In this document: piece after piece, positions 27,133 to 46,322 of the stretch
Layout of the letters: each line of letters begins with the position of its first letter
How positions within the stretch are numbered: the first letter of the stretch is position 1
DNA from: Algoriphagus locisalis
Lineage (GTDB): Bacteria > Bacteroidota > Bacteroidia > Cytophagales > Cyclobacteriaceae
Direction: 5' to 3'
Assembly (NCBI RefSeq): GCF_900116615.1
Contig: NZ_FPBF01000009.1
Coordinates: 124,001-188,000 of the forward strand
Length of the DNA: 64,000 nt
Position numbers and translations under genes: made by a program
The notes under the pieces: generated by a model
Told to the model about the DNA's origin: nothing
The model's database searches: none
Seen by the model: the letters and a program-made list of their open reading frames with translations, nothing else

Positions 27133-28272
27133 ATGACTTGGACTCAAGACCCATTTTATGTCAGTGGCATGCTTTGTATGTTCGTCTTACTTTGTGTTTG
27201 GTTGGCAAGGTTCAAAGGCTTTCAGACGATAGGTACACCGATTTTGGTGATCTTGGCAACTGCTATTGCGGCAAACCTAGGTGTCATTCCTACTGCGACA
27301 AATGGTAACCCAGTTTATACCGGTGTTTTTATGTACTTGGCTCCGATGGGGATTTTTATTGCATTGCTGGAGGTCAATCTCAAAAGCCTAAAAAAAGCAG
27401 GAGGACCTATCTTACTCATGTTTGGAATAGGGGGCCTTGGGACAATTGTCGGAGTTTTAGTTGCGTGGTTTATTGTTCAGCCTGCTTCTGAAATTGGCCC
27501 ACTAGCTCATGCGGTGGCGGGAATGTACACTGGAACCTATATAGGAGGTAGTATTAATTTCAATGCTGTAGCATTGAGTTATCATGTAAACGAAAATGCT
27601 GATTTATTTGCAGCTACCACGGTGGTGGATAATTTGATAGGTACTCCATGGATTATTGCTACATTGATTTTGCCCAAGTATTTACAGCGTTTCTTTCCAA
27701 GAAAAAAACTACTGCCAGCAGCTAGTGAAGTTCAAAAAGTTAAGGCTGAAGAATCAATTAGCATTGCTGGCTTGGCAAGTATAATTGGCTTAGCGTTTTT
27801 GGCCATGGCAGCTTCAAAGTTGGTTTTCCAGTATTACCCTCAAATCCCAGAAATTCTCACACTCACCACCATTGCGTTGATTCTAGCCCAGTTTTCCTTC
27901 ATAAAAAAGCTTTCCGGCAGTCATACCATAGGTTTTTTTCTAATTCTGCTTTTTCTGGCCACAATTGGGACTCTTTGTGACTTCAGTACGCTTTCAGGAC
28001 TTGGTGATCTTGCAGGTACACTTATTCTATTTGTTTCCATACTTGTGCTGATTCACGGCCTAGTGATTTTCGGAGTTGGGGCACTTTTCAAAATCGATTG
28101 GGATGTCATTGCAGTGGCCTCTCAGGCAAATGTGGGAGGGAATACAACAGCACTTGCTTCGGCAGAGAGTTTGAACCGACCGGATTTGCTAATTCCCGGA
28201 GTTTTGGTTGGGAGCTTGGGGAATGCTCTAGGAACTTATGTCGGATTTTTTATTGCAGGAATGCTTGGGTGA
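27133..28272 (+). CDS. DUF819 family membrane protein
   Basis: A 379-residue polytopic membrane protein with about ten hydrophobic segments. It fits the DUF819 (YjcL-like) family: YTGTYIGGSINFNAVALSYH in the first half and NVGGNTTALASAESLNRPDL near the end, two inverted-topology motifs suggesting a transporter fold. The substrate is unknown. It starts 8 bases after the aminotransferase stop, so it is likely co-transcribed, though a link to amino-sugar synthesis is not evident from the sequence. Confidence 0.88.
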   Translation: MTWTQDPFYVSGMLCMFVLLCVWLARFKGFQTIGTPILVILATAIAANLGVIPTATNGNPVYTGVFMYLAPMGIFIALLEVNLKSLKKAGGPILLMFGIGGLGTIVGVLVAWFIVQPASEIGPLAHAVAGMYTGTYIGGSINFNAVALSYHVNENADLFAATTVVDNLIGTPWIIATLILPKYLQRFFPRKKLLPAASEVQKVKAEESISIAGLASIIGLAFLAMAASKLVFQYYPQIPEILTLTTIALILAQFSFIKKLSGSHTIGFFLILLFLATIGTLCDFSTLSGLGDLAGTLILFVSILVLIHGLVIFGVGALFKIDWDVIAVASQANVGGNTTALASAESLNRPDLLIPGVLVGSLGNALGTYVGFFIAGMLG

Positions 28273-28384: not shown

Positions 28385-28975
28385 ATGGGGGATGATGTAA
28401 ATGTTTTGATGTCAAATAGCTCAAAAGGCACGAAAGATAAGCATGCGGATGATCGGGCTTTATGGTTGACCTTGTCCAATGGCAACAGCCTGGCTTTTTC
28501 CAGTCTTTATAACAGGTACGCTAATCCACTTTTTAATTACGGAATGCATATCTGTTACAATCGCGAGCTGGTCAAAGATTGTATCCAGGAACTTTTTGCC
28601 TGGCTATGGAAGAAAAGACATGAGCTATCCCCAGTGGATTCGGTCAAATATTATCTGTTTAAGTCTTTCAGAAATATCCTGATCAAGGCGATTAATCAAA
28701 GTAAAAAATTTACAGAAGAGCCTGATGAGCAACATTTTTTGACTCAAGAGCTGTCCAAGGAAGAGGAAATAATTGCCTTGGACAAGGAGAATTATCATAA
28801 AGAAAAAGTCACTAAAGCTTTGGGTAGAATATCCAAGAGGCAGCGTGAAATAGTGATTCTCCGCTTTTTCAACGAAATGAGCTATGCTGAAATTTCTTCC
28901 CTAATGGGAATCAGTACAGCTTCAGCTCATAATTTACTTTCTAAGGCTCTCCAAGCTATGAAAGTGATAATCTGA
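28385..28975 (+). CDS. FecI-like ECF RNA polymerase sigma factor (sigma-70 family)
   Basis: A 196-residue extracytoplasmic-function sigma factor. Region 2 (about 36-100) has FSSLYNRYANPLFNYG and the DCIQELFAWLWKKR segment; region 4 (about 135-190) has KRQREIVILRFFNEMSYAEI with a helix-turn-helix ending STASAHNLLSKALQAMK. It is followed by a FecR-type anti-sigma gene and an STN-domain SusC, so it very likely switches on the downstream outer-membrane and enzyme genes when the substrate is bound. No intact region 3, as expected for ECF factors. Confidence 0.93.
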   Translation: MGDDVNVLMSNSSKGTKDKHADDRALWLTLSNGNSLAFSSLYNRYANPLFNYGMHICYNRELVKDCIQELFAWLWKKRHELSPVDSVKYYLFKSFRNILIKAINQSKKFTEEPDEQHFLTQELSKEEEIIALDKENYHKEKVTKALGRISKRQREIVILRFFNEMSYAEISSLMGISTASAHNLLSKALQAMKVII

Positions 28976-29042
28976 GATCATACTAAAAGGTCTCATTTCG
29001 TTCGATTAAAAAAAAAAATCAAAAATTATGATGAGGTTTTGA

Positions 29043-29083
29043 CAGGCTCATACTCTTATAGGTATATACCAAATAAGAGCCTG
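29043..29083 (+). promoter_or_regulatory. Stable hairpin ending on the fecR GTG start codon
   Basis: CAGGCT (29043-29048) and AGCCTG (29078-29083) form the base of a hairpin that continues with TCTTAT/ATAAGA and a self-complementary GGTATATACC (29061-29070). The left arm carries a small bulge. The last G of the stem is the first base of the GTG start codon of the FecR gene, so the fold would cover the ribosome entry site. No T tract follows, so it is not a usual terminator. Confidence 0.55.
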
Positions 29084-30093
29084 TGAATTACCATCATCCC
29101 GATTATTCTGATTTTTCCATTGAGGATTACCTTGTAGATCCATTTTTTAAGGAGTGGGTACTCTATTCTACGCCCGAGCATGATGAGTTTTGGATGCGAT
29201 GGATCAAAGCGCACCCGGAAAAGTCCGCCTTGCTAGAAGAAGCCAGAAGTTTGGTTCTGTCGTTGGAAAATTCCAAAGAAGAAATGTCTCCAGAGGAATT
29301 AAAGGATGTTTGGTCCTTAATTCAGGAAGATGTGAATATGCCTCCAAAATCTCTAGAGACCTACAGGTCAAAAAAATACCGTTGGGCCGTAGCAGCAGGG
29401 GTTTCCTCTGTTTTGGCAGTCGCGACTTTGGTGTATTTACTTTTGCTTCCAAAGGAAATTGAATTTGTGACCGGGTTTGGCGAAACCCTCGAAATCACGT
29501 TGCCAGACAGTTCTACGGTGAAATTAAATTCTAACTCCAAGCTTACTTACCTGGACAATTGGGAGGGGCAAACAGCCCGGGAGATCGAGATTGAGGGAGA
29601 GGCATTTTTTAATGTGGTACATAAAGTAGATCATCAACCCTTCAGAGTGCTAAGTTCCCAAAATGTGACGATTGAGGTGCTAGGAACCGAATTCAATGTA
29701 TATAACCGGGCTGAGGAGACAGAAGTAATTCTCAACTCAGGTATGGTTACATTGAGCTTTCCTGTAAAGGAGAAGGAAGGCAAGATCGTCATGAATCCAG
29801 GTGATCTGGTGAAATTCAAAGACAATAAATTCAAGCGGGAAAGAGTGAATACTTCCCTTCACACCTCATGGAAAGACAATGTACTAAACCTCGAACAAAC
29901 AAGTCTCGCCGAAATGGTGAAAATGGCTCGGGACAATTATGGAGTCACCATCGACGTCGAGAACAAAGAAGCACTGGAGCTTACCGCCTCCGGTTCCATG
30001 CCCTTGACTGACTCGGACTCATTTCTACGACAGATCGCTTTGATCTTCAATGTGGAACTCACTAAAGAAAATAATAAGTACCTGATTAAATAA
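29083..30093 (+). CDS. FecR-type anti-sigma factor
   Basis: Inner-membrane regulator of the adjacent sigma factor, 336 residues from a GTG start. The cytoplasmic N-terminal part (1-100) should hold the sigma factor; a single membrane helix lies at about 101-123; the periplasmic FecR domain follows (about 128-225, with TLPDSSTVKLNSNSKLTY); and the C-terminal domain (about 270-336, SLAEMVKMARDNYGVTIDV) matches DUF4974, which contacts the STN domain of a TonB-dependent receptor. The start codon sits at the foot of a hairpin, so initiation may be controlled. The next ATG (29191) would remove much of the sigma-binding part. Confidence 0.93.
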   Translation: MNYHHPDYSDFSIEDYLVDPFFKEWVLYSTPEHDEFWMRWIKAHPEKSALLEEARSLVLSLENSKEEMSPEELKDVWSLIQEDVNMPPKSLETYRSKKYRWAVAAGVSSVLAVATLVYLLLLPKEIEFVTGFGETLEITLPDSSTVKLNSNSKLTYLDNWEGQTAREIEIEGEAFFNVVHKVDHQPFRVLSSQNVTIEVLGTEFNVYNRAEETEVILNSGMVTLSFPVKEKEGKIVMNPGDLVKFKDNKFKRERVNTSLHTSWKDNVLNLEQTSLAEMVKMARDNYGVTIDVENKEALELTASGSMPLTDSDSFLRQIALIFNVELTKENNKYLIK

Positions 30094-30136
30094 CCCAAAA
30101 TGTTCTATTCCCCAAATAACCTAAAAACCTCTAAGC

Positions 30137-33100
30137 ATGAAAAAGATCTTACTATTCATGTGTCTAGCCTGCTCGATCTCATGGGATGCGCTTCCGCAAA
30201 CCATAGATTTACTAGCGTCAGGACGGACTCTTAACCCTGCTGGAAACGCCAGCAAAAATTATGATGATTTACACAAAAGCCTGAGTAAGCTGGAGAAAGA
30301 CTTTAGTGTCTCCATCGCGTATCAGGATGAGTTGGTCCGGGAAAAGAAAATCCGGACAAAGACAGAATCTTTCGAATCTGTGGAGCAAGGTCTTACCTCA
30401 CTACTGCAAGGTACAGGCCTGAAGTATGAGAAAGCAGCTGAACGCTTTTACATAATCTCTCCAAAGAAAGCGAATACCAATACTTTACTCATTCCATCTG
30501 AATCAACACAGTTGAGTAAAATCTCCGCCGGACCATCCATGGCAAGTAACGCTAGGAAGGTGGCAGAACAATCCAAATCCCAGCTAAGAAGAATCGAAGT
30601 GGGAGGCAAAGTGACAGATGAGAATGGTCAAGGATTTCCAGGTGTAAACGTATTGCTGAAGGGGACCTCTGTAGGGGCTGTTACTGATGTGCAGGGCGAT
30701 TTTGTGATCAATGTAGCTGATGAGAATTCTGTTTTGGTTTTTTCATTCGTGGGATACATGGACCAGGAAGTGAGAGTTGGAAATCAGACTGTATTCACTA
30801 TTTCCATGCAGGTGGATGAAAGCAATCTGGAAGAAGTGGTGGTGACGGCTCTAGGCATCGAAAAGACGGCAAAAAGTCTTGGTTACGCTACTTCCACTGT
30901 GAAATCAGATGAGCTCACGATCAACCGAACTCCCAATGTAATGAATGCGCTGCAGGGAAAAGTAGCAGGTGTTTCCATCTCAGCTTTAGGGACGGGTCCT
31001 GGCGGAACTTCAAAAATCAGAATCCGTGGACAATCCTCGATTTCCGGTCAAAACAATCCGCTGATTGTAGTCAATGGTGTTCCGATTGATAACACCAATT
31101 TTGGATCTAAACCTGGAAACAATGCTTCCGATAGCAGTATAGGAACCCGTGGTGGCGGAAATACTTCCGATGGTGGAGATGGACTTTCCAGTATCAATCC
31201 TGATGATGTAGAGTCGATGACCATACTTAAAGGAGCTGCTGCTGCTGCGCTTTACGGTTCCCGTGCCAAAGACGGGGTGATCATGATCACCACTAAAAGC
31301 AAGAATGACACGAGAGGAATAGGAGTGACTTATAACCTCAATTATACCAATGAAGCCCCACTCGATTTTACTGATTACCAATATGAATATGGACAGGGTG
31401 AGCAAGGTGTAAGACCTACTACACCCAATCCAACTTCGGGGCAATGGTCTTTTGGTGAGAAATTCGAGCCAGGAATGACACAGATGCTTTTTGACGGAGT
31501 GACTGTTCCCTACGTACCAGTAAAAGGAATTATAAATGATTTCTTCCGGAATGGACAGAACGTAACTAACTCGATCACCTTAGCTACTTCTACAGAAAAA
31601 GGAGGTCTTAGCCTGTCTTTCTCTGACCTGAACAGTAAAGGGATTGTGCCTAACAATACGTATAACAGGAAGACGATCAATTTGGGATTTGGCTATGATC
31701 TGACGCCTAAATTCAGCTTCAGAGGTAACTTCAATTACTCTTTCGAAAAGAATACCAATCCTCCAAATATAGGCGAGCAGGACAATACCATTCCAGTTGC
31801 GCTCTATAACATGGCCAATTCTATGCCTCTGGATGTATTGAGGGACAATCGCTACGATGCAAATGGAAACGAAGCGGTCTATTCCAGATTCAGAAACAGG
31901 ACAAATCCTTATTTCACACTTTCTGATCAATTCCAGAATATCAAGCGGGACAGGATTTTCGGAAATGTAGCCTTGAAATACAAAATCAACGACTGGCTAT
32001 TTGTCCAAGGAAGAGTAGGACAGGATTATTGGTCTAGAGATCAGGATTACAACAACTTCCCAACAGGCCAAGCCTCAAGGGCTGCTGCTCCTGCAGGATT
32101 TGTGAACGGCGTGTACACACAAGATCAGCGGAGGTTCAGAGAGATCAATACAGATTTCCTCATCAATGCGAACAAGCAATTCGGAGATCTGAGCGTAAAT
32201 GCAAATTTCGGTGGTAATCACATGCAGCGCATGTCAGAACTAAATAGTGTACAGGTGACGGATTTCGTGGTAAGAGGTCTTTACACTGTCCAAAACGGCA
32301 GAGCTAAAGATCCACTTTATGATCTGAATGAGCGTGCTGTGAATTCCCTTTATGGATCTGCAGAATTCTCTTACAAAGATAAATTGTTTCTAACTGGAAC
32401 GGTCAGAAATGATTGGTTCTCCACTTTATCAGAAGCCAATAGAAGCATCATATATCCATCCGTATCTGCAAGCTGGGTCTTTTCTGAGAATTTTAATCCA
32501 ACCGGTTGGTTGAATTTCGGTAAGCTTAGAGCAGCCTATGCGGAAGTAGGATCCGATGCAGACGTGGGAGCCTATTCCAATGTGCTTTTCTACGGAATCA
32601 ATAATAACCTTTTTGGCGGTCAACCTGTAGGAGGGCCTATCGGAACGAATCTACCCAATCCGAACCTTCGCCCGATGCGGATAGGAGAAGCAGAAATTGG
32701 ATTAGAATTGAGCATGTTTCAAGGTAGAGTAAGCCTTGATATGGCAGCTTATAGAAAGTTGACTACCGATCAGATCGTAAGTGCACAGATTTCGGACGCT
32801 TCTGGCTTCGTGAACACCTCAATCAACAGTGGTCAAAGTGAAAACAAAGGAATCGAGATGCTCCTCACTTTAGTTCCTGTCGAGAATGATAAGTTTACTT
32901 GGGAGATTACTTCCAATGCAGCTTACAACAAAACCAAAGTACTAAGCCTACTCACAGATACTCCCGGAGAGCGGATTACAGTGGGAACCCACGTGTTCAA
33001 CGGAGAATTACGGCAGATCGTGGGAATGGAAATGGGGCAAGTTGCAGGTTTTGGCTATAGACGGGATGAGCAGGGAAGAAAGATTTTCGGTGCCAATGGA

Positions 33101-33667
33101 CTTCCGCTTCGTACTCCAGACCTTGTCAATTTCGGAAGTGCATTACCCAATTGGGTAGGAGGGATTAATAACTCCTTCAATTACAAAGGTGTGATGCTTT
33201 CTTTCCTAATCGATTTCAAACTTGGAAATGTCATGCTTTCAGGTACCAATTTCAACGCCACCCGACATGGGCTTCATAAGATGACTTTGGAAGGAAGAGA
33301 GGGCGGAGTAGTAGGTGATGGAGTAAATGAAGCAGGCGAAATTAATACTGTGGTTGCGCCAGTGCAATCGTATTGGGAAGTGGTTAGATCTCAGGCATTA
33401 GTGGAGCCAGTTGTTTATGACGGAGGTTATTGGAAGTTACGGCAAATTACCTTGGGCTATGACTTTACGAAGCATTTACCAGAAAACCAGCCTTTCCAAT
33501 CAGTGAAGCTGAATTTCGTAGCCAACAATGTCTTCATGATAAAGAAATGGGTTGACAATATCGACCCCGAATCCTTCGGATATTCATCGGATAACTTGGT
33601 TGGAATGGAGTCCACAGGCCTTCCATCTACCCGAGGTTTAGGTTTCAATCTGAATGTCAAATTTTAA
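30137..33667 (+). CDS. SusC/RagA-type TonB-linked outer-membrane receptor with STN domain
   Basis: A 1176-residue TonB-dependent transporter. In order: signal peptide (1-20), STN signalling domain (about 45-110), a carboxypeptidase-regulatory-like domain (about 154-230, GGKVTDENGQGFPGVNVLLK), the plug (about 235-390, with VVVTALGIEK and the KGAAAAALYGSRAKDGVI signature), and a 22-strand-type barrel to the end (RGLGFNLNVKF). The STN domain means it both imports its ligand and signals to the FecR protein encoded just upstream. Paired with SusD, it brings a ligand into the periplasm. The linked enzymes suggest a sugar acid or related ligand rather than a plain polysaccharide, since no glycoside hydrolase is in the locus. 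Confidence 0.95.
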   Translation: MKKILLFMCLACSISWDALPQTIDLLASGRTLNPAGNASKNYDDLHKSLSKLEKDFSVSIAYQDELVREKKIRTKTESFESVEQGLTSLLQGTGLKYEKAAERFYIISPKKANTNTLLIPSESTQLSKISAGPSMASNARKVAEQSKSQLRRIEVGGKVTDENGQGFPGVNVLLKGTSVGAVTDVQGDFVINVADENSVLVFSFVGYMDQEVRVGNQTVFTISMQVDESNLEEVVVTALGIEKTAKSLGYATSTVKSDELTINRTPNVMNALQGKVAGVSISALGTGPGGTSKIRIRGQSSISGQNNPLIVVNGVPIDNTNFGSKPGNNASDSSIGTRGGGNTSDGGDGLSSINPDDVESMTILKGAAAAALYGSRAKDGVIMITTKSKNDTRGIGVTYNLNYTNEAPLDFTDYQYEYGQGEQGVRPTTPNPTSGQWSFGEKFEPGMTQMLFDGVTVPYVPVKGIINDFFRNGQNVTNSITLATSTEKGGLSLSFSDLNSKGIVPNNTYNRKTINLGFGYDLTPKFSFRGNFNYSFEKNTNPPNIGEQDNTIPVALYNMANSMPLDVLRDNRYDANGNEAVYSRFRNRTNPYFTLSDQFQNIKRDRIFGNVALKYKINDWLFVQGRVGQDYWSRDQDYNNFPTGQASRAAAPAGFVNGVYTQDQRRFREINTDFLINANKQFGDLSVNANFGGNHMQRMSELNSVQVTDFVVRGLYTVQNGRAKDPLYDLNERAVNSLYGSAEFSYKDKLFLTGTVRNDWFSTLSEANRSIIYPSVSASWVFSENFNPTGWLNFGKLRAAYAEVGSDADVGAYSNVLFYGINNNLFGGQPVGGPIGTNLPNPNLRPMRIGEAEIGLELSMFQGRVSLDMAAYRKLTTDQIVSAQISDASGFVNTSINSGQSENKGIEMLLTLVPVENDKFTWEITSNAAYNKTKVLSLLTDTPGERITVGTHVFNGELRQIVGMEMGQVAGFGYRRDEQGRKIFGANGLPLRTPDLVNFGSALPNWVGGINNSFNYKGVMLSFLIDFKLGNVMLSGTNFNATRHGLHKMTLEGREGGVVGDGVNEAGEINTVVAPVQSYWEVVRSQALVEPVVYDGGYWKLRQITLGYDFTKHLPENQPFQSVKLNFVANNVFMIKKWVDNIDPESFGYSSDNLVGMESTGLPSTRGLGFNLNVKF

Positions 33668-33678
33668 CCCATCTAGCC

Positions 33679-35196
33679 ATGAAAAAGATAAATAAATACC
33701 TACTAATCATACTTGTGGTACTGTATTCATCGGCTTGCGATAGCAATTTCGACGAACTCAATACCAATAAAGTAAGTGCTACGGCGATTGATCCGGCATT
33801 TCAGTTAAATGCCGCAATCGTTGGCTGTGCCTACCCAAATGGAAGCTTAGTCTATGATATTGGGATAGTGCAGCAAATAGTCACTCCTAACTCCGGACTG
33901 GTATCCGGTGCCAATTACAACCAGGATAACAGAACTTTGACTCAGGAGCTCTGGCAGGGATATTACAGGAATGTGATTAAAAATACCAGTGATGTAATCA
34001 TACAAGTCCAAGATGATCCTGCCCGGGCTAATTTGAAGAATATGACCAGAATCATCCAGGCTTTTGCCTTTATGGTGTTGACAGATGATTATGGAAGCAT
34101 TCCCTATTTCCAAGGAGGAAAAGGCTATTCGGAACAGATTTACCTTCCTGCCTATGACTCCCAAGAGGCTATTTACGATGATTTAATCAATGAACTAACT
34201 GAAGCTACTGCTGCTTTGGATCCATCTGGGCCATTAGAGGCTGCTGATATTCTCTATGGCGGTGACCTGGACAAATGGAAGAATTTTGGTTATTCACTTC
34301 TTTTGAGAGCTGGAATGCGGCTGAGTGAAGTAAATCCGACCAAAGCTGCACAAGTGGTGCAGACTGCCGTGCAGGGTGGGGTTATTTTGACAAATGACGA
34401 AAATGCCAGAATCAACCATGATGCAAACTACACCAACCCAATCGGTAATTTTCTAAATGCGACTGAAGCTTCCAACTTCTACCTCACAAAGCCTTTCGTA
34501 GATTACCTGCGAAGCAATAATGATCCTCGACTTTCTGCCATTGCGGTCACTTATGTAGGAGCCAAATCAGGTCCAGAACAGACCGTGGCTAATCAAACCT
34601 ATGATGCAAGTGTTCATCAAGGATTGCCGATGGGAAATGATAATGCTGGTGCCGTAAGTGCAGCTTCAGCTCTGGGACTTGCCAGTTTTTATGAATTTGC
34701 GCAAGCAGATAGAAGACGGGTGACCAAAAATACTGCTCCGAACTTTCTTGTAACTGCTTCGCAAAATTACTTGCTAATGGCAGAAGCCAGAGAAAGAGGA
34801 TGGATCAGTAGCGGGACGGTAGAAGAGTATTACAATACCGGTGTGCGTGCACATATGGAGCAACTTGGTACAGTAGATGAAGCGTCAACTATTTCTACTT
34901 CGGAAATAAACCAATATCTCCAGCAAAACCCCTTTGACCAATCCATGGCATTGGAGCAGATCAACACGCAATATTGGGTTTCCAGTTTCCTGAATGGTCC
35001 TGAAGCATTTGCCAATTTCAGGAGATCCGGCTACCCGGAATTGACTCCAAATCCTTACCCAGGCAAAGAGGTGGAATTCATTAACCGATTAACTTATCCG
35101 AACTCTGAAATTTCTGTGAATTCAGTAAACGTCCAAGCAGCTATCTCTGCTCAAGGCGCGGACAATCTCGCAACCAAAGTTTGGTGGGACAAATAA
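33679..35196 (+). CDS. SusD/RagB family nutrient-binding lipoprotein
   Basis: Outer-membrane lipoprotein of 505 residues that caps the SusC barrel and binds the ligand. The lipobox is YSSAC (Cys20). TPR-like helices (about 80-250) include AFAFMVLTDDYGSIPY, and the C-terminal half has NYLLMAEARERGWIS and the WVSSFLNGPEAFANFRRSGYP region typical of the SusD-like type that ends in LATKVWWDK. It starts 11 bases after SusC and is followed by a strong terminator, which separates SusCD from the enzymes downstream. Confidence 0.94.
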   Translation: MKKINKYLLIILVVLYSSACDSNFDELNTNKVSATAIDPAFQLNAAIVGCAYPNGSLVYDIGIVQQIVTPNSGLVSGANYNQDNRTLTQELWQGYYRNVIKNTSDVIIQVQDDPARANLKNMTRIIQAFAFMVLTDDYGSIPYFQGGKGYSEQIYLPAYDSQEAIYDDLINELTEATAALDPSGPLEAADILYGGDLDKWKNFGYSLLLRAGMRLSEVNPTKAAQVVQTAVQGGVILTNDENARINHDANYTNPIGNFLNATEASNFYLTKPFVDYLRSNNDPRLSAIAVTYVGAKSGPEQTVANQTYDASVHQGLPMGNDNAGAVSAASALGLASFYEFAQADRRRVTKNTAPNFLVTASQNYLLMAEARERGWISSGTVEEYYNTGVRAHMEQLGTVDEASTISTSEINQYLQQNPFDQSMALEQINTQYWVSSFLNGPEAFANFRRSGYPELTPNPYPGKEVEFINRLTYPNSEISVNSVNVQAAISAQGADNLATKVWWDK

Positions 35197-35200
35197 AAAT

Positions 35201-35238
35201 AGAACCGAGTCTGGAAAATTCAGGCTCGGTTCTTTTTA
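35201..35238 (+). terminator. Rho-independent terminator after susD
   Basis: AGAACCGAG (35201-35209) pairs with CTCGGTTCT (35224-35232), extended by CTG/CAG inside, then five T. This is a strong hairpin directly after the SusD stop, so enzymes starting at 35258 need read-through or their own promoter. Confidence 0.9.
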
Positions 35239-35257
35239 ATTTTAGTTATATTCCAAA

Positions 35258-36190
35258 ATGAACAAAACCTATATAACCCTATTGCTTCTATTCTTTTTTG
35301 GAATAGATTCTTTTGCACAGCAAATTTCCAAAGAGGAAATGCTATTTCTCACCCAAGAATGGAAGGGAGAAAGATTTGAAGATGGTCGCCCTAAAGTGTC
35401 TGATGACCTACTGAGGCGTATGAAAATCGTGACTCATGATGAAGCCTGGGCTGTCATGAAAAATGCAGGCTACAAGTATCAATATGCTGAAGGCTGGGAA
35501 ATGATCAACCCGGACAGCATTATGGTAGGAAGGGCACTGACGGCTACGTTTATGCCAGGCAGGCCAGATATCCATGGGGCTATAGATGCCCGCGGAAAGG
35601 CTGAAGGAAAGAAAGGTCAGAATGTTTGGCCGGTGGATTTATTGGTAAAAGGAGATGTTTACGTCGCCGACCAATTTGGGATACACGATGGTGGGCCCAC
35701 TATCGGTGATAACGTAGGCAATGCGATTTTTGCCAATTCAGGCAATGGAATAGTTTACAACGGTGCGATCAGAGACATCGCAGGGCTGAAAGAAATCGGG
35801 GGCTTTACTTCCTACTATCGCAGCTATCATCCTTCTCATCACAATCAACCAAGAGATTTGAATACCATGTTGATAGGCATCAATAAGCCTACAAAAATTG
35901 GTCAAGCTACCGTGATGGCAGGTGATGTTGTCTTAGGACGAGATGGTGCGGTGTCTTTTATTCCTGCACATCTAGTCGAGCAAGTTGTGGTGACTTCTGA
36001 AGTTGTCCGGCTGAGAGATATGTTTGGACATGAGCGAATCCGTGAGGGAAAATACACCGCTGGTGATATCGATACGAGATGGTCTGATGAAATAGAAAAA
36101 GACTTTTCTCAATGGCTTGAATCCCATATCGACGAATTGCCAATAGCACGGGAGCAAATTCAAGAAATACTCAAAAACAGAACCTGGTAA
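35258..36190 (+). CDS. Exported RraA-family aldolase-like protein (copy 1)
   Basis: A 310-residue member of the RraA/HMG-aldolase family with a clear Sec signal peptide (1-20, cut after SFA). The core (about 100-260) has Asp151, Arg172 and Asp173 in IGDNVGN and NGAIRD, giving exactly the D-X20-R-D motif of family members with metal-dependent pyruvate-aldolase activity. This argues for an enzyme rather than an RNase E regulator. N- and C-terminal extensions make it longer than cytoplasmic RraA (about 160-230). It is followed 25 bases later by an enolase-superfamily gene, and the pair recurs at 37551-40063. Substrate unknown; cleavage of a 2-keto-3-deoxy or 4-hydroxy-2-oxo acid to pyruvate is inferred. 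Confidence 0.87.
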   Translation: MNKTYITLLLLFFFGIDSFAQQISKEEMLFLTQEWKGERFEDGRPKVSDDLLRRMKIVTHDEAWAVMKNAGYKYQYAEGWEMINPDSIMVGRALTATFMPGRPDIHGAIDARGKAEGKKGQNVWPVDLLVKGDVYVADQFGIHDGGPTIGDNVGNAIFANSGNGIVYNGAIRDIAGLKEIGGFTSYYRSYHPSHHNQPRDLNTMLIGINKPTKIGQATVMAGDVVLGRDGAVSFIPAHLVEQVVVTSEVVRLRDMFGHERIREGKYTAGDIDTRWSDEIEKDFSQWLESHIDELPIAREQIQEILKNRTW

Positions 36191-36214
36191 ACTATATCAA
36201 AACCTAAAAAACCT

Positions 36215-37489
36215 ATGAAATCTAAGAATTCAAGAAGATCCTTTTTACAAAAAAGTGCAGTTGCTGGCCTGACCGGTGCCGGCTTGATGGGGACTTTTGG
36301 TGGCCTCAATGAAGCTGTAGCCAAACAGAATCCTTACTCTAATCCTTCTGATCTGAAAATCACAGATGTAAAATGTGCCTACGTAAGGGGTGCAGTCTAT
36401 GTCAAAATATACACCAACCAGGATGTGTGGGGTTGTGGAGAGGCGGTTGATGCCATCCAAGGAACCTATTACATGATCCAAAGAATGGGCAGACAGCTGA
36501 GAGGTCAAAACCCTCTCAATCCCAATCGTCTTGCCGAGCAAATCCGCAAAGGAGCATTTTTTGGAGGTGCACAATCCGGCGTATTTGTAGCGGTTTTGAC
36601 TGCTGTAGAAACGGCCCTCTGGGATATTACCGGGAAAGTCTTTAACGTCCCTGTGTATCAATTACTGGGAGGGAAATTCAGGGATAAAATCCGTGTTTAT
36701 TGCGACACAGCGCTTTATACCTCGACAAATCCTACTCCAAATGATTATGCCATGGCGGCAAGAAATGCAGTATCCAAAGGATATAACGCTGTGAAATTTG
36801 ATGTGGATGATGCCAGAGATCCAAATAAATATGACCGATTCAACTGGACCGCAAGCCCAGCTGAAATAGAGCGAATGTACAATGCTATCGCGGCAGTGAG
36901 GGAAGAGGTGGGGCCAAATATAGATATCTGTGTGGATATGCACGGACGCTATGATGCCGTCACCGGGATGAAAATGGCAAAAGCTTATGAGCCATTGAAC
37001 TTGATGTTCTTAGAAGAACCTATTCCTGCGGACAACCCCGAAATGTATAAGCACATTACCCAAGAAACTAGCACTCCTATCTGTGCGGGAGAAAATATCT
37101 ATCTCGCCTATGGATTCACAAAATTACTGTCAGATGGAGCTTTGAATATCATCATGCCTGATTTGCAAAAGGCAGGTGGACTCGGCGAGGGGCAACGTAT
37201 AGCCAATCTGGCAAACCTTTATTATGTGCCTTTTTCACCACATATGGTAGCTTCTTTTCTTGGAGCAATGGCTAGTTGCCATGTCTGTGCTTCTGTGCCC
37301 AACTTCCAGATCATGGAATGGCAAATCTACATGGACACAGATGACCTATGGAAAGACATCGTAACCTATGATGGACCAAGGACTGAAAATAGTTTTATCA
37401 CAGTTTCTGAAAAACCAGGAATTGGAGTGGAAATCAACGAGGAAGGAATGAAAAAACACGCAGTTCCTGGAATTCCATTCTTTGAATAA
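36215..37489 (+). CDS. Exported enolase-superfamily dehydratase (mandelate racemase/galactonate dehydratase-like), copy 1
   Basis: A 424-residue enolase-superfamily enzyme with a twin-arginine signal (Arg7-Arg8 in SRRSFLQKSAVAG; cleavage near AVAK). Metal ligands Asp241, Glu267 and Glu293 and the dyad Asp316-His343 are spaced 26, 26, 23 and 27 residues apart, the same as the D-galactonate dehydratase pattern I recall (183, 209, 235, 258, 285), and His243 in DMHGR matches the acid catalyst of that group. It would remove water from an aldonic or similar acid to give a 2-keto-3-deoxy acid. It sits between two RraA-like genes. Transport folded by Tat fits a metal enzyme. Confidence 0.88.
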   Translation: MKSKNSRRSFLQKSAVAGLTGAGLMGTFGGLNEAVAKQNPYSNPSDLKITDVKCAYVRGAVYVKIYTNQDVWGCGEAVDAIQGTYYMIQRMGRQLRGQNPLNPNRLAEQIRKGAFFGGAQSGVFVAVLTAVETALWDITGKVFNVPVYQLLGGKFRDKIRVYCDTALYTSTNPTPNDYAMAARNAVSKGYNAVKFDVDDARDPNKYDRFNWTASPAEIERMYNAIAAVREEVGPNIDICVDMHGRYDAVTGMKMAKAYEPLNLMFLEEPIPADNPEMYKHITQETSTPICAGENIYLAYGFTKLLSDGALNIIMPDLQKAGGLGEGQRIANLANLYYVPFSPHMVASFLGAMASCHVCASVPNFQIMEWQIYMDTDDLWKDIVTYDGPRTENSFITVSEKPGIGVEINEEGMKKHAVPGIPFFE

Positions 37490-37550
37490 TCATGACAAAG
37501 GTTTGAATTCAGCATTGTAATGCGAATCAAAAACCATAAATCCTAACTAC

Positions 37551-38525
37551 ATGAACCCAATTTCATTACCTCAAAAGAAGATCAAGACTTCTCTCTTGAT
37601 AGGTGCTCTTTCGTGCCTTTTTTTAATGCCCAAAATAGAGGCACAAGCTCAAAATGTAGGCGCTTCACCAGAATATATCAAAGCTTTAACGGCCGATTGG
37701 CAAGGTGAAAGATTTGCTGATGGAAGACCGAAGGTCTCTGATTCCATTCTGGAACGCCTAAAGAAAATCTCCATTGAAGAAGCTTGGGGCGTATTGCGCA
37801 ACAAAGGCTATCAGAATCAATACGAAGGAGAATGGCAAATCATGCTTCCGGATGAAGCGATGACAGGTCGGGTGGTCACAGCGCAATACATGCCGCTTCG
37901 ACCGGACTTGGAAAAGCAGGTGAAAGATCAAGGAGTGGAAAAGGAAGGGCGATCTCCCAAGGGAGGGACGAATTCTTGGCCTATCGATATTCTCTCCAAC
38001 GGCGATGTTTATGTAGCCGATGGTTATGGGAAAATAGTTGACGGGACACTTATTGGCGATAATCTCGGAAATGCCATCTATGCCAAATCCCAGCGTGGAG
38101 TGATTTTCAACGGCTCTGTGAGAGATCAGGAAGGCTTATCAGAAATCGAAGGATTTAATGCCTGGATGAAAGGCCAGGATCCATCTTATATTCAGCAAAT
38201 GATGTTGACTTCCATTAACTCTCCTATTAGAGTGGGACGTGCTACTGTTCTACCTGGCGATGTGGTTTTGGCCAAAAAGTACGGAGTGATTTTTATTCCG
38301 GCTTATTTGGTGGAGGAGCTGGTATTGACTTCAGAAGTAACCGGGTTAAGAGATGAATTTGGTCACCAGAGACTTCGTGAAGGTAAGTATCTCGCCGGCC
38401 AGATTGATAGCCAGTGGACCGAGGAAATCAAAAAGGACTTTTTGGATTGGCTGAATAATTATCCAGGAAAACTGCCCATGACCAAAGAGGAATTGGATAA
38501 TTACCTCAAAGAGCGGAATTATTAA
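37551..38525 (+). CDS. Exported RraA-family aldolase-like protein (copy 2)
   Basis: A 324-residue paralogue of the protein encoded at 35258, sharing the same frame of motifs (WQGERFADGRPKVSD here, WKGERFEDGRPKVSD there). A signal peptide is predicted (basic start, hydrophobic 13-27, cut near IEAQAQ). The D-X20-R-D motif is intact as Asp170, Arg191 and Asp192 (GDNLGNA, NGSVRD). Like its partner it should act outside the cytoplasm as a divalent-metal aldolase or decarboxylase on an oxo acid. The paralogue pair differs in the active-site entrance region (about 100-150), so substrates may differ. The next gene, 53 bases on, is again an enolase-superfamily protein. Confidence 0.87.
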   Translation: MNPISLPQKKIKTSLLIGALSCLFLMPKIEAQAQNVGASPEYIKALTADWQGERFADGRPKVSDSILERLKKISIEEAWGVLRNKGYQNQYEGEWQIMLPDEAMTGRVVTAQYMPLRPDLEKQVKDQGVEKEGRSPKGGTNSWPIDILSNGDVYVADGYGKIVDGTLIGDNLGNAIYAKSQRGVIFNGSVRDQEGLSEIEGFNAWMKGQDPSYIQQMMLTSINSPIRVGRATVLPGDVVLAKKYGVIFIPAYLVEELVLTSEVTGLRDEFGHQRLREGKYLAGQIDSQWTEEIKKDFLDWLNNYPGKLPMTKEELDNYLKERNY

Positions 38526-38578
38526 TTCATTTTCCCTTCAAATCGAATATACTCAATAACCCAATAACCCATTTTACC

Positions 38579-40063
38579 ATGAAAAACACCCTAAAACACC
38601 TCATTCAAAAGAATAAGGAGCGAGAGCGTGCTTACACCGCTCAGCGTCAAGCTGAAATTGATAACCCATTTACCAAAGACAATAGGAGAGATTTTTTGAA
38701 AAAAACAGCGCTTGGTGGCTTGAGTTTATCTGCCTTGATGGGACTTAGTATAGAAGACACCATGGCCGAAACGACTAAAAATGTACGTCGTGCGTCTGCA
38801 CCTTCTGATCTAAAAATCACTGATTTGCGCTATGCCCTCACCAATGTGATGAACGGTACAGCCATCATCCGTATAGATACCAATCAGGGGATCTACGGCT
38901 TGGGTGAGGTAAGGGACGGGGCAGATCCTAAGTATGCGTTGATGCTGAAAAGCAGGATACTGGGAGAAAACCCTTGCAATGTAGAGAAGCTCTTCAAAAT
39001 CATCAAACAATTTGGTGGGCAATCAAGGCAAGCTGGGGGCGTATGTGCAGTGGAAATGGCCCTGTGGGATCTATGTGGCAAAGCTTACAATGTTCCTGCT
39101 TGGCAGTTGCTTGGGGGACGATATCGCGATTCTGTGAGGCTATATGCCGATACTCCCGAGGCAGATTCTCCAGAGGAGCAACTTAAACTAATCAAATACA
39201 GAACTGAAGAACAAGGATATACTTGGCTGAAAATGGACGTTTCCATCGGTGAGATCATGGATATTCCAGGTTGTATCGTCAATCCTGAGATTTTCAAAAT
39301 GGGAAAAAGTCAGTGGCAAGGAGGCTATATGTCATATGCCAACACGGCTCATCCATTCACAGGAGTGCAGATCACGGAAAAAGGACTGGATGAACTCGCC
39401 AAAATCGTGGATCATGTACGTGGTATGGTAGGCTATGATATTCCTATTTCTACTGATCATTACGGTCACTTTGATCTCAATAACTGTATCAGACTAGGAC
39501 AGGCATTGGATAAGTACCGCCTAGCATGGTTAGAGGACATGGTGCCGTGGCAGATGTGGCAGCAGCATAAGACGATCACCGATGCTTTGAATACGCCTAC
39601 CACCACAGGAGAGGATATTTACCTTCTGGAGTATTTCAAAGACCTAATCGATAATCATGCAGTGGATATTGTTCATCCGGATTTGGCTTCATCAGGTGGG
39701 CTTTTGGAGACAAAAAAAATAGCTGATTACGCAGAAGAAAAAGGAATTGGTATGGCGATGCACCAAGCTGGAACTCCGGTTTCTTTTATGGCGAATGTGC
39801 ATTGCGCGGCTGCTACTCAAAATTTCCTGGCCTTGGAACATCACTCGGTAGATATACCTTGGTGGGAAGATCTAGTGACCATGACAGGTGGAGGCAAAAT
39901 GATAGACAAAGGTTACGCCCCTGTACCGTTAGATGCGCCAGGTTTAGGGATTGAGCTGAATGAGGAAGTGATAAAAGCACATCTTCATCCGTCGGATAGC
40001 TCTTATTTTGCACCTACCGATATGTGGAATGAAAAGCGTTCTCACGATAGAACCTATAGTTAA
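38579..40063 (+). CDS. Exported enolase-superfamily protein (mandelate racemase/muconate lactonizing type), copy 2
   Basis: A 494-residue enolase-superfamily protein with a twin-arginine signal placed late (Arg36-Arg37, NRRDFLKKTALGG). Metal ligands Asp293, Glu319 and Glu345 and dyad Asp368-His395 keep the spacing 26, 26, 23 and 27 seen in the copy at 36215. Instead of DMHGR it has DHYGH, and a large insertion lies at about 225-265, so the substrate or reaction differs. Lys218 (WLKMD) is in place of the second-strand acid/base. Longer than typical (about 400) because of the N-terminal 35 residues and the insertion. Candidate partner of the RraA-like protein just upstream. Confidence 0.85.
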   Translation: MKNTLKHLIQKNKERERAYTAQRQAEIDNPFTKDNRRDFLKKTALGGLSLSALMGLSIEDTMAETTKNVRRASAPSDLKITDLRYALTNVMNGTAIIRIDTNQGIYGLGEVRDGADPKYALMLKSRILGENPCNVEKLFKIIKQFGGQSRQAGGVCAVEMALWDLCGKAYNVPAWQLLGGRYRDSVRLYADTPEADSPEEQLKLIKYRTEEQGYTWLKMDVSIGEIMDIPGCIVNPEIFKMGKSQWQGGYMSYANTAHPFTGVQITEKGLDELAKIVDHVRGMVGYDIPISTDHYGHFDLNNCIRLGQALDKYRLAWLEDMVPWQMWQQHKTITDALNTPTTTGEDIYLLEYFKDLIDNHAVDIVHPDLASSGGLLETKKIADYAEEKGIGMAMHQAGTPVSFMANVHCAAATQNFLALEHHSVDIPWWEDLVTMTGGGKMIDKGYAPVPLDAPGLGIELNEEVIKAHLHPSDSSYFAPTDMWNEKRSHDRTYS

Positions 40064-40159
40064 GAATACCTATTTTACTTATTGTTAAAGGACCCGGAGA
40101 TTTGTATTTAACTGGTTTTCGGGTCATTTTAAAAAAGCTTTCACCAAAAACAATATATT

Positions 40160-41257
40160 TTGAATCCAAAAATCACCAAAGCTCTTTCTATTCTCAGCGG
40201 CGTTTTATTCATTGCTGCGCTTGCTGTCAGTCTCTTCGTTGATATTTCAAAAGGAGGATTCTTGTGGATCGGTTTTTTCTTTATCTGTGCGATTGCCTTT
40301 TTAGGGATTCCTAAGCTCAAGGGATATGCATACTCTATGATGATTTTTGGTTCAGTAGCTTTGGCACTATATTTCCCGCAGTATTTCCAAGAATACAATG
40401 GCTTCAAATTTAGTGTACTGATTGTTCCCTTGATTCAAATTATCATGTTTGGCATGGGCACATCTATGAGTATCAAGGATTTTCTCGGTGTAATCAAAAT
40501 GCCCAAAGGAGTGCTGATTGGTGTTCTTTGTCAATTTTCAATTATGCCATTCATCGGGTTTACACTAGCAAATTTGAGTGGGTTTCCGCCTGAAATTGCC
40601 GCTGGAATTATACTGATCGGATGCTCTCCAAGTGGTATGGCTTCCAATGTGATGGCGTTTCTAGCCAGAGCCAATTTGGCGCTGTCAATCACCGTCACTT
40701 CAGTCACCACCTTACTAGCTCCTTTCGTCACCCCATTTTTGATGGGATGGCTTGCTGGTGAATTTGTTGCGATTGATGTGCTTGACATGATGTTTAGCAT
40801 TGTCAAAATGGTCATTATCCCGATTGGAGCAGGACTACTCTTCAATTATTTCCTTCGTGGCAAAGCCAAGTGGCTGGATGATCTCATGCCTATAATTTCA
40901 ATGGCTGCCATCGCCTTGATTTTGATAGTGATAGTAGCGGCTGGTAGGGATAGCCTTCTGGATATCGGGCCACTATTAATTGTGTTGGTAATTGCTCATA
41001 ATCTATTTGGCTATTTACTAGGTTACTGGGCGAGTAGGTTATTTAGGCTCAGCGAAAAAGATTGTAGAACTATCGCGATAGAAGTGGGGATGCAAAATGG
41101 AGGTCTTGCCTCTGGTATAGCAAAGGAAATGGGAAAAATCGCAACAGTTGGTCTTGCACCCGCTGTATTTGGTCCGTTTATGAATGTGAGTGGTTCTATA
41201 CTCGCTTCCTATTGGCATAAAAAGCCTATTCCAGATGAAACAATTGATAATTCTTAG
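40160..41257 (+). CDS. Bile acid:sodium symporter (BASS) family transporter
   Basis: A 365-residue inner-membrane carrier with about ten helices (PF01758 type). The sodium-binding motifs are visible as GCSPSGMASNVMAFLA with the following STTL-like TSVTTLLAPFVTPFL stretch, and EVGMQNGGLASGIA. Family members import bile acids or, in plants (BASS2), pyruvate; others take up organic acids. It lies 96 bases after the second enolase-superfamily gene and ends the locus at a strong terminator, so it may take up the product of the exported enzymes; this is inference. The start is TTG; the next ATG (about 40336) would remove two helices. Confidence 0.85.
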   Translation: MNPKITKALSILSGVLFIAALAVSLFVDISKGGFLWIGFFFICAIAFLGIPKLKGYAYSMMIFGSVALALYFPQYFQEYNGFKFSVLIVPLIQIIMFGMGTSMSIKDFLGVIKMPKGVLIGVLCQFSIMPFIGFTLANLSGFPPEIAAGIILIGCSPSGMASNVMAFLARANLALSITVTSVTTLLAPFVTPFLMGWLAGEFVAIDVLDMMFSIVKMVIIPIGAGLLFNYFLRGKAKWLDDLMPIISMAAIALILIVIVAAGRDSLLDIGPLLIVLVIAHNLFGYLLGYWASRLFRLSEKDCRTIAIEVGMQNGGLASGIAKEMGKIATVGLAPAVFGPFMNVSGSILASYWHKKPIPDETIDNS

Positions 41258-41267
41258 CTAAAAAAAG

Positions 41268-41297
41268 AGACAGTCCCACTAATCGGACTGTCTTTTT
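41268..41297 (+). terminator. Rho-independent terminator after the BASS transporter
   Basis: A 9-bp stem AGACAGTCC/GGACTGTCT (41268-41276 and 41285-41293) with an 8-base loop is followed by TTTTC. It ends the aldolase/dehydratase locus. Plus-strand A before the stem (41260-41266) means it could also stop transcripts coming from the convergent DUF1275 gene. Confidence 0.9.
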
Positions 41298-45657: not shown

Positions 45658-46077
45658 TTAGCTCAGTTTATATGCCTGTCTGGCGATCAGTTTCCACTGG
45701 CTCTTCTCCTTTTGCCAGACTAGGATAACTCCGATTTTTATTGAATTTGATTTACCACCGTCAAGCACATCTGCGACTAAATTGTGGCGAACTATCGCTA
45801 CATCTTTTTCTACCTGAATGGTTTGGTCTTCAAAAGAAACCGTTGCGAAATCTGATGCACCACTCACAAGAGCTTCAATAAACTGTGCCTGGTTTTCCAG
45901 TTTTCCGCTGGAATGTCCGTAGCTGAGGTGTATAGAGCTCAGTTCATTGAGGTTGGATACAGTGGGATCAATGAGTGCCAGTCGGAGTTTTTCTACCTGA
46001 GAGGCTACCTCTTTTTCAGCTTGCGCAAAGGCAAAAGTTACACAAAGAAAAAGGGCGAAGGTTAAAATGGTTTTCAT
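45658..46077 (-). CDS. Exported NTF2-like (DUF4440-type) protein
   Basis: A 139-residue small protein from ATG 46077 with a signal peptide (MKTILTFALFLCVTFAFAQ). The mature part is shaped like the SnoaL/NTF2-like fold: LRLALIDPTVSNLNELSSIH, then IVRHNLVADVLDG and VWQKEKSQWKLIARQAYKL. Many relatives bind small ligands without known catalysis. A longer frame (46119) adds 14 residues before the signal and is less likely. It precedes the response regulator by 26 bases and may be its sensing partner or just co-transcribed. Confidence 0.8.
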   Translation of the reverse strand: MKTILTFALFLCVTFAFAQAEKEVASQVEKLRLALIDPTVSNLNELSSIHLSYGHSSGKLENQAQFIEALVSGASDFATVSFEDQTIQVEKDVAIVRHNLVADVLDGGKSNSIKIGVILVWQKEKSQWKLIARQAYKLS

Positions 46078-46322
46078 AGGGTTTTGTGTTATTGAAAATC
46101 GGACTATTTGCAACCGCATAACTAAAGGATTGCAGTACAGTGTTAATGTACAAAAAATGGTGGTAGATTGGCTTTCAACACATCAATAAGTTGGTGGTAA
46201 CCTACAGAAATGTTAGTATGATAAGGCCAGCGCGTAGAGGTGCGGTAAAGGATTGATTTCCGATGAGTTTGAAATCATCTTTTTCAAAGGTGGGCTGTTA
46301 TTCAGTTCGGCTGAATTATTTG

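Follow-up and report, generated by a model that had tools for sequence, protein, structure and literature searches.

A gene cluster of Algoriphagus locisalis predicted to dehydrate and cleave sugar acids outside the cytoplasm

The window analyzed here is a 64,000-nucleotide stretch of the Algoriphagus locisalis genome (contig NZ_FPBF01000009.1, positions 124,001 to 188,000), and its positions 28385-41257 hold nine open reading frames (ORFs), all open and all on the + strand, in the order extracytoplasmic function (ECF) sigma factor, FecR, STN-bearing SusC, SusD, RraA1, Eno1, RraA2, Eno2 and BASS symporter. We propose, at a probability of about one half, that this cluster serves the dehydration of sugar acids in the periplasm, followed by retro-aldol cleavage of the products by RraA, which yields pyruvate and an aldehyde, and by uptake of the keto acid through the BASS symporter. 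The proposal builds on gene content, export signals, catalytic motifs, co-localisation, the matching of RraA and enolase types and swaps of the upstream enzyme, all of which were observed.

From family knowledge, the SusC-SusD pair (SusCD) would take a sugar acid, or a small molecule bearing one, across the outer membrane, and the STN domain of SusC would signal to FecR and the ECF sigma factor. The exported enolase-superfamily enzymes would then dehydrate the sugar acid in the periplasm, the product of each would be split by its own exported RraA protein, with a divalent metal and by a retro-aldol reaction, into pyruvate and a short aldehyde, and the symporter would carry the 2-keto acid so formed into the cytoplasm. 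The substrate class, a sugar acid, is what we infer from these data; the least certain points are that RraA performs a retro-aldol reaction rather than a dehydration and that the cargo of the symporter is a 2-keto acid. The features of the cluster are as follows.

28385..28975, + strand: ECF sigma factor (FecI-type), Sigma70_r2 and r4_2
29083..30093, + strand: FecR anti-sigma regulator, FecR 59.8 bits
30137..33667, + strand: SusC/RagA TonB-linked outer-membrane transporter with N-terminal STN, TIGR04056 640.3 bits
33679..35196, + strand: SusD-like lipoprotein (SusD-like_2), PF12771 270.2 bits
35201..35233, + strand: hairpin with T-run between the SusD and RraA1 genes, possible partial terminator
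35258..36190, + strand: RraA1, exported RraA-family protein of type R1, PF03737, 3NOJ-like fold, D151-X20-R172-D173
36215..37489, + strand: Eno1, enolase-superfamily protein with twin-arginine translocation (Tat)-type signal, type E1, D-x-H-G-R; MR_MLE_N and MR_MLE_C, Tat model, active-site residues
37551..38525, + strand: RraA2, exported RraA-family protein of type R2, PF03737 RraA-like match
38579..40063, + strand: Eno2, Tat-type enolase-superfamily protein of type E2, D-x-Y-G-H; MR_MLE_N and MR_MLE_C
40160..41257, + strand: BASS-family sodium symporter, SBF PF01758 135.1 bits, cut-off 24.3
41264..41297, + strand: terminator-like stem-loop 3' of the BASS gene

The proteins of the window were labelled by Pfam and NCBIfam searches, and scores were compared with the cut-offs of the models. 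The gene order, families and coordinates given in an earlier note on this DNA were borne out, with two domains marginal: the STN match of SusC (27.7 bits, cut-off 28.4) and the FecR_C match (24.2 bits, cut-off 24.4) were slightly below threshold. RraA1 and RraA2 scored 54.0 and 61.3 bits against the RraA-like model PF03737, above its cut-off of 24.5, and were 47% identical over 308 columns; Eno1 and Eno2 were 31% identical over 453 columns. The start codon of the BASS gene is TTG and uncertain. In the 5.42 Mb genome the only RraA-domain matches were RraA1 and RraA2, and there were six enolase C-terminal matches, four SBF matches, one TatC and pyrroloquinoline quinone (PQQ)-dehydrogenase matches at two places.

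RraA proteins of the exported type were matched in 61 of 148 genomes of the family (RraA1 query, 1e-10), and in 18 of 296 genomes sampled across the phylum (56-row RraA profile, 1e-20); the same profile had matches in 17 of 92 genomes of the family of G314 and 29 of 117 of the family of G270. At least 454 RraA1 relatives were confirmed in named genomes, and the best 80 were kept; the closest named relative among the matches listed was from Algoriphagus winogradskyi (99% identity). Gene context was read in 176 stretches, namely the window, 100 loci and 75 stretches added to them, in which ORFs were called and clustered by BLAST. An exported-type RraA was present in 171 of these, and since the stretches were selected by RraA its constancy is no evidence; the five without one among the called ORFs were one of L113-L132, one of L148-L167 and three of L168-L222, and in L161 the longest-ORF rule apparently picked wrong frames. 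The 80 named loci were the best-scoring ones, so close relatives are overweighted, and some genomes entered with stretches under two handles, which makes the counts non-independent. The phylum sample took in 20 of 30 match rows and 15 of 18 genomes; a few second matches and three genomes of the family itself (G000, G065 and G122) were left out.

RraA and enolase proteins were assigned the type of whichever window copy gave the higher BLAST score, provided that the two scores differed by at least 15 bits. Among 178 cases of an enolase gene directly after an RraA gene on the same strand, 108 were R1-E1, 70 were R2-E2 and none was mixed. In the reverse order, enolase then RraA (n = 63), mixed types did occur, as is the case where tandem cassettes meet, the junction in the window among them. 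The motif D-x-H-G-R was found in 115 of 126 Eno1-type proteins and D-x-[YFWL]-G-H in 101 of 109 of the Eno2 type. Aldehyde dehydrogenase occurred exclusively with E1 (13/13) and AGE epimerase exclusively with E2 (20/20); the Fisher tests of these neighbour associations ignore relatedness. In an RraA tree of 142 of 237 rows, made by a quick method and with some long branches, the two window copies belonged to different sets, each with members from several genera, which indicates that the duplication is old. From these data we infer that E1 and E2 stand for two substrate configurations, perhaps a gluco-like one for E1 and an epimerised, manno-like one for E2. The strict pairing makes the prediction directly testable with four proteins.

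Export was judged by sequence patterns and not by SignalP. Both RraA proteins of the window have a hydrophobic N-terminus. Eno1 matched the Tat model TIGR01409 (20.3 bits, cut-off 16.7); in Eno2 the sequence RRDFLKK follows a leader of 35 residues, and no TIGR01409 match was obtained at E 0.001. Across the family, a hydrophobic N-terminus was present in 155 of 157 full-length RraA proteins, one of the two misses being cut by a contig end, and RRx[FLIVM] lay within the first 75 residues in all 168 enolases as against 43 of 651 other ORFs, so the predicted export of both families held up. A second, simple rule, run over a larger protein set, called as exported 230 of 243 RraA proteins (13 were called not exported), 233 of 236 enolases, 20 of 22 DgaE-type proteins, 20 of 21 amidohydrolases, 14 of 14 RidA proteins, 10 of 13 UxuA, 14 of 14 lactonases, 13 of 13 PQQ dehydrogenases and 19 of 22 AGE epimerases. 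The same rule called 1 of 33 gluconokinase-like proteins, 1 of 16 fumarylacetoacetate (FAA)-hydrolases, 1 of 13 IlvD, 0 of 13 aldehyde dehydrogenases, 0 of 4 2-keto-3-deoxygluconate (KDG) kinases and 0 of 6 2-keto-3-deoxy-6-phosphogluconate (KDPG) aldolases; the GarR-like proteins (6/6) were probable false positives.

Neighbours were counted within six genes of the exported-type RraA in the 171 stretches, and their families were labelled from one or a few representatives each (Pfam, NCBIfam), mostly under equivalog cut-offs. The most frequent were enolase (143), BASS (103), SusC (81) and SusD (75), followed by AraC regulator (32), FGGY gluconokinase-like (30), AGE epimerase (20), DgaE-type (16), amidohydrolase (16), aldehyde dehydrogenase (13), FAA-hydrolase (13), RidA (12), SMP-30 lactonase (12), UxuA (12), PQQ dehydrogenase (12) and IlvD (10); the precise functions of the aldehyde dehydrogenase and of the GarR-like neighbours are a guess. 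Sugar-acid-type neighbours at family level also include GntP and a D-galactonate-type major facilitator superfamily (MFS) transporter. These neighbour families, the predicted export of RraA and enolase, the strict type matching and the recurrence of BASS support the interpretation of the earlier note in part.

Enolase was found in 75 of 80 named loci, 19 of 20 family loci, 14 of 20 phylum-sample stretches and 34 of 55 stretches from two further families; the corresponding counts were 48, 13, 12 and 29 for BASS and 44, 13, 2 and 15 for SusC plus SusD. Enolase and BASS are thus steady partners of RraA, and SusCD is frequent in some lineages only. The earlier note had inferred a pathway that takes up its acid through SusCD: the association of RraA with enolase and BASS stood, and SusCD as an obligatory part, or as the core of the cassette, was rejected on its two occurrences among the 20 phylum-sample stretches. 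The exact nine-gene order recurred in 7 of 175 other stretches (L033, L034, L035, L036, L040, L042 and L055), as had been expected for close relatives, so the arrangement is not due to chance. Many further stretches had rearranged versions, with RraA-enolase or enolase-RraA and with BASS on either side or in the middle, and this variety speaks against the simple inheritance of a single operon.

The upstream enzyme was swapped in part of the set. Of the 28 enolase-free stretches 15 had a DgaE-family pyridoxal phosphate-dependent ammonia-lyase, and one further stretch had both. The 16 stretches with DgaE contained amidohydrolase in 15, BASS in 14, RidA-type protein in 13, lactonase in 6, SusC in 4 and KDG kinase in none; in one an MFS transporter stood in place of BASS, and the best model for MFS relatives from other stretches was a D-galactonate transporter, under its cut-off. 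When the RraA tree was labelled for the lack of an enolase together with a DgaE or amidohydrolase gene at most four genes away, seven changes were counted, at least six of them forced by starred branches. UxuA-type dehydratases were found in 12 stretches, 11 of which also had an enolase. The DgaE-type stretches L159, L160, L165, L170, L175, L176, L212-L219 and L221 mostly have amidohydrolase, RidA-type protein and BASS, and their amidohydrolase and RidA-type proteins also carry export signals; an exported RidA would be notable in itself. These stretches likely encode a periplasmic route for amino sugar acids. A wider scheme, which we hold only tentatively and with some doubt, is that many Bacteroidota have a complete non-phosphorylative Entner-Doudoroff-like pathway in the periplasm, with PQQ-dependent aldose oxidation, SMP-30 lactone opening, dehydration by enolase or UxuA or DgaE-type plus RidA deamination of amino sugar acids, RraA cleavage and pyruvate import by BASS.

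The residues D241, E267, E293, H343 and E368 (Eno1 numbering) were present in all 168 enolases, and D316 and K194 in 166; their roles as metal ligands and bases are those usual in the superfamily. The Eno2 model (predicted local distance difference test score, pLDDT, 85.1) matched 2QQ6 best (Z 47.2, root mean square deviation (rmsd) 1.8, 369 aligned), followed by 3RR1 and others, with ManD structures lower in the list. The marks of the mandelate-racemase subgroup, namely the fold, three acidic metal ligands and a His base with an Asp partner, were all found. The Eno proteins share the fold, the metal ligands and the catalytic His with D-galactonate and D-mannonate dehydratases, but differ in their Tat-type export signal and reached no cut-off of a characterised model: Eno1 and Eno2 scored 246.5 and 167.3 bits against NF010624 (D-galactonate dehydratase, cut-off 311) and 174.9 and 147.4 bits against NF043051 (D-mannonate dehydratase ManD, cut-off 550). 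The best NCBIfam relatives of the window symporter were bass and PanS, and it scored below both TIGR00841 (BASS subfamily, 238.9 bits, cut-off 326.3) and NF047939 (PanS ketopantoate transporter, 233.7 bits, cut-off 400).

All 157 RraA proteins kept R172 and D173 (RraA1 numbering), and 146 of the 157 kept D151. Alignment showed that the D-X20-R-D motif, which we take to be the metal/catalytic motif of class II pyruvate aldolases of the type that acts on 4-hydroxy-4-methyl-2-oxoglutarate and 4-carboxy-4-hydroxy-2-oxoadipate (HMG/CHA), is common to RraA1 and the HMG/CHA aldolase 3NOJ. The RraA profile matched 3NOJ at E 2.6e-11, and the RraA1 model (pLDDT 90.2) matched 5X15 with Z 23.7, rmsd 2.0 and 198 aligned and 3NOJ with Z 20.9, rmsd 3.5 and 211 aligned. 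RraA1 thus shares fold and motif with 3NOJ, but identity in the structural alignment is 17% and RraA1 is longer, with a signal peptide. RraA1 and RraA2 scored 24.0 and 51.1 bits against TIGR02798 (ligK_PcmE, HMG/CHA aldolase), under its cut-off of 304.5, and the best NCBIfam model for RraA was PRK08245 (hypothetical protein), also under its cut-off.

Several observations weigh against the proposed pathway. BASS lay beyond six genes or was missing in 68 of 171 stretches, some of them cut by contig ends, and enolase, UxuA and DgaE were all absent nearby in 12 of 171. D151 was replaced by S or A in 11 of 157 exported RraA proteins (S in eight). No equivalog-level dehydratase or aldolase model was reached by the window proteins. 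To these are added the properties of FlDet, an RraA-family enzyme of Flavobacterium sp. UMI-01, and the KDG kinase and KDPG aldolase genes linked to some cassettes, each of which brings in another reading.

We know of no RraA-family enzyme of the phylum other than FlDet that has been characterised as acting on a 2-keto-3-deoxy sugar acid. An excerpt of its description (PMC8563752) presents a cytosolic 2-keto-3-deoxyglucarate (KDGR) dehydratase/decarboxylase, with 2-keto-3-deoxyglucarate being dehydrated and decarboxylated and with no activity on KDG, KDPG, 4-deoxy-L-erythro-5-hexoseulose uronate (DEHU) or 4-hydroxy-2-oxoglutarate. The RraA reaction is the weakest step of our proposal because FlDet acts in this way and is inactive on KDG. 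In an alternative that we consider unlikely, RraA would likewise dehydrate, and perhaps decarboxylate, the 2-keto-3-deoxy sugar acid; the 2,5-dioxo acid produced, for example alpha-ketoglutaric semialdehyde (KGSA), would be imported and oxidised in the cytoplasm. FlDet shares family and phylum with the window RraA proteins, but in the same excerpt it has 237 residues and the native N-terminus Met-Thr-Thr (PMC8563752). Thirteen of the 171 stretches had an aldehyde dehydrogenase (Aldedh, KGSA-type as a guess) close to the cassette, in each case with E1, and a cytosolic RraA adjoins an aldehyde dehydrogenase on a Falsirhodobacter plasmid, as this alternative would expect. However, the 13 labelled aldehyde dehydrogenases were all called as not exported, and IlvD or FAA-hydrolase, present in 12 of the 13 stretches (both in three), could be their partners. 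Moreover, six cytosolic RraA relatives with FlDet-like N-termini, from the family of G278, which we take for Flavobacteriaceae, have S where 3NOJ and most exported RraA proteins have the motif D; they are apparent relatives of FlDet, and the eight exported RraA proteins noted above share the S.

KDG could also be made by the enolase in the periplasm and imported intact by BASS, with KDG kinase and KDPG aldolase finishing the route and RraA as an accessory, a course of events that we regard as improbable. KDG kinase was found in 4 of 171 stretches (L081, L083, L162 and L210) and KDPG aldolase in 5. One stretch, L162, carries ECF sigma factor, FecR, SusC, SusD, two UxuA, RraA, two enolases and BASS along with PQQ dehydrogenase, lactonase, KDG kinase and KDPG aldolase, and this gene set fits both a full periplasmic route and KDG import. 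The kinase is seldom linked, however, being absent from all the DgaE stretches, and an accessory RraA accounts poorly for the strict matching of RraA and enolase types. The broader idea of the earlier note, that a 2-keto acid is made in the envelope and taken up by the symporter, would hold whether RraA acts as an aldolase, acts like FlDet or leaves KDG to be imported.

Very improbable, in our estimate, is a different small hydroxy-acid, aromatic-derived or metal-chelating, with RraA as an HMG/CHA-type aldolase and with FecIR/SusCD for chelate uptake. FecI-FecR-STN control resembles that of iron citrate uptake, and RraA1 is like HMG/CHA aldolase in fold and motif; that aldolase functions in aromatic catabolism, as stated in an excerpt of PMC5065237, and annotation places Dyadobacter RraA proteins in benzoate degradation in an excerpt of PMC12584681. 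However, the named neighbour families are those of sugars and sugar acids, and no ring-cleavage family was among the neighbours named, many others being left unnamed. An RNase E-type regulator in an incidental neighbourhood, suggested by the family name and by PRK08245 as best model, was rejected as hardly credible on the export signals and the recurrent metabolic cassette; the metal-site residues are kept, and the two window copies are the only RraA-domain matches of the genome.

Read as periplasmic dehydration and cleavage, the cassette appears to be a recurrent variant of sugar-acid catabolism. Bacterial sugar catabolism is usually described as import first and chemistry later; here dehydration and C-C cleavage are seemingly shifted beyond the cytoplasmic membrane, the partner enzymes having Sec- and Tat-type export signals and the symporter being a possible carrier of keto acids. 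The predicted logic of aldonate dehydration followed by cleavage to pyruvate and aldehyde is that of non-phosphorylative Entner-Doudoroff/Dahms-type pathways, but the known ones are cytoplasmic and use other aldolase families, whereas the window dehydratases and RraA proteins are predicted to be exported. We know of no periplasmic dehydratase or RraA protein in the NanO/NanU system for sialic acid uptake of Tannerella. This system likewise uses a SusCD-like pair for a small acidic sugar, according to an excerpt of PMC3969230. No account of the cassette was found in open-licence PMC full-text searches, which covered titles and the starts of abstracts and, for long result lists, a part of the results. 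If the proposal is true, it would suggest substrates for SusCD loci that have no glycoside hydrolases, give a function to a large exported family annotated only as RraA and to its enolase-superfamily partners, and mean that periplasmic sugar acids and keto acids are exposed to leakage and cross-feeding. If the complete periplasmic pathway is true, the cytoplasm would receive a central metabolite and not a sugar.

As for a polysaccharide utilization locus, the SusC and SusD pair is present, and no glycoside hydrolase or polysaccharide lyase was found among the nine genes and the gene upstream of them. That gene (27133-28272), immediately upstream of the sigma factor, encodes a DUF819 membrane protein. 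The DUF819 family was also seen in the stretches of five relatives (L033, L034, L035, L039 and L040); in L039 it lies directly before RraA, and the sigma factor, FecR and SusCD are absent at that place.

The hairpin at 35201-35233 is near-perfect and lies directly 3' of the SusD stop codon. At the junctions from SusD to RraA or enolase, 25 of 48 had a fold below -8 kcal/mol and a T-run, and in Algoriphagus-like relatives the stem sequences vary at this junction with the pairing retained; some relatives (e.g. L065, L070, L081, L083 and L103) had no such stem after SusD. The hairpin may cause SusCD to be expressed above the enzymes. Terminator-like sites over the whole region were not enriched (12 found, 12.5 expected from shuffled sequence), and a sigma-70 promoter scan, with a model not made for this phylum, was uninformative (19 sites, 26.4 expected). 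The gene 3' of the cluster is on the opposite strand. An exported-type DUF4440/SnoaL-like protein is encoded at 45658-46119, 4.4 kb downstream of the cluster and on the other strand; its family was near RraA in 22 of 171 stretches, and it is possibly an accessory enzyme of the pathway.

A plasmid-borne exported RraA was also sought and rejected: tblastn with RraA1 matched 79 plasmid records, all below 60% identity, and the 15 of these that were listed had 23.8-28.3% identity over 74-80% of the query. Four regions from alphaproteobacterial plasmids with cytosolic RraA relatives were read. L-arabinonate dehydratase directly adjoined RraA in two of the four and was one gene away in the third; the fourth was the Falsirhodobacter region described above.

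Finally, in five Cyclobacterium stretches (L038, L057, L058, L062 and L064) a glucarate-dehydratase-like gene and a GarR-like dehydrogenase gene adjoin the cassette, with an HpaI-type aldolase in four and malate synthase and lactate permease in four. These neighbours suggest an aldarate route with C2/C3 by-products.

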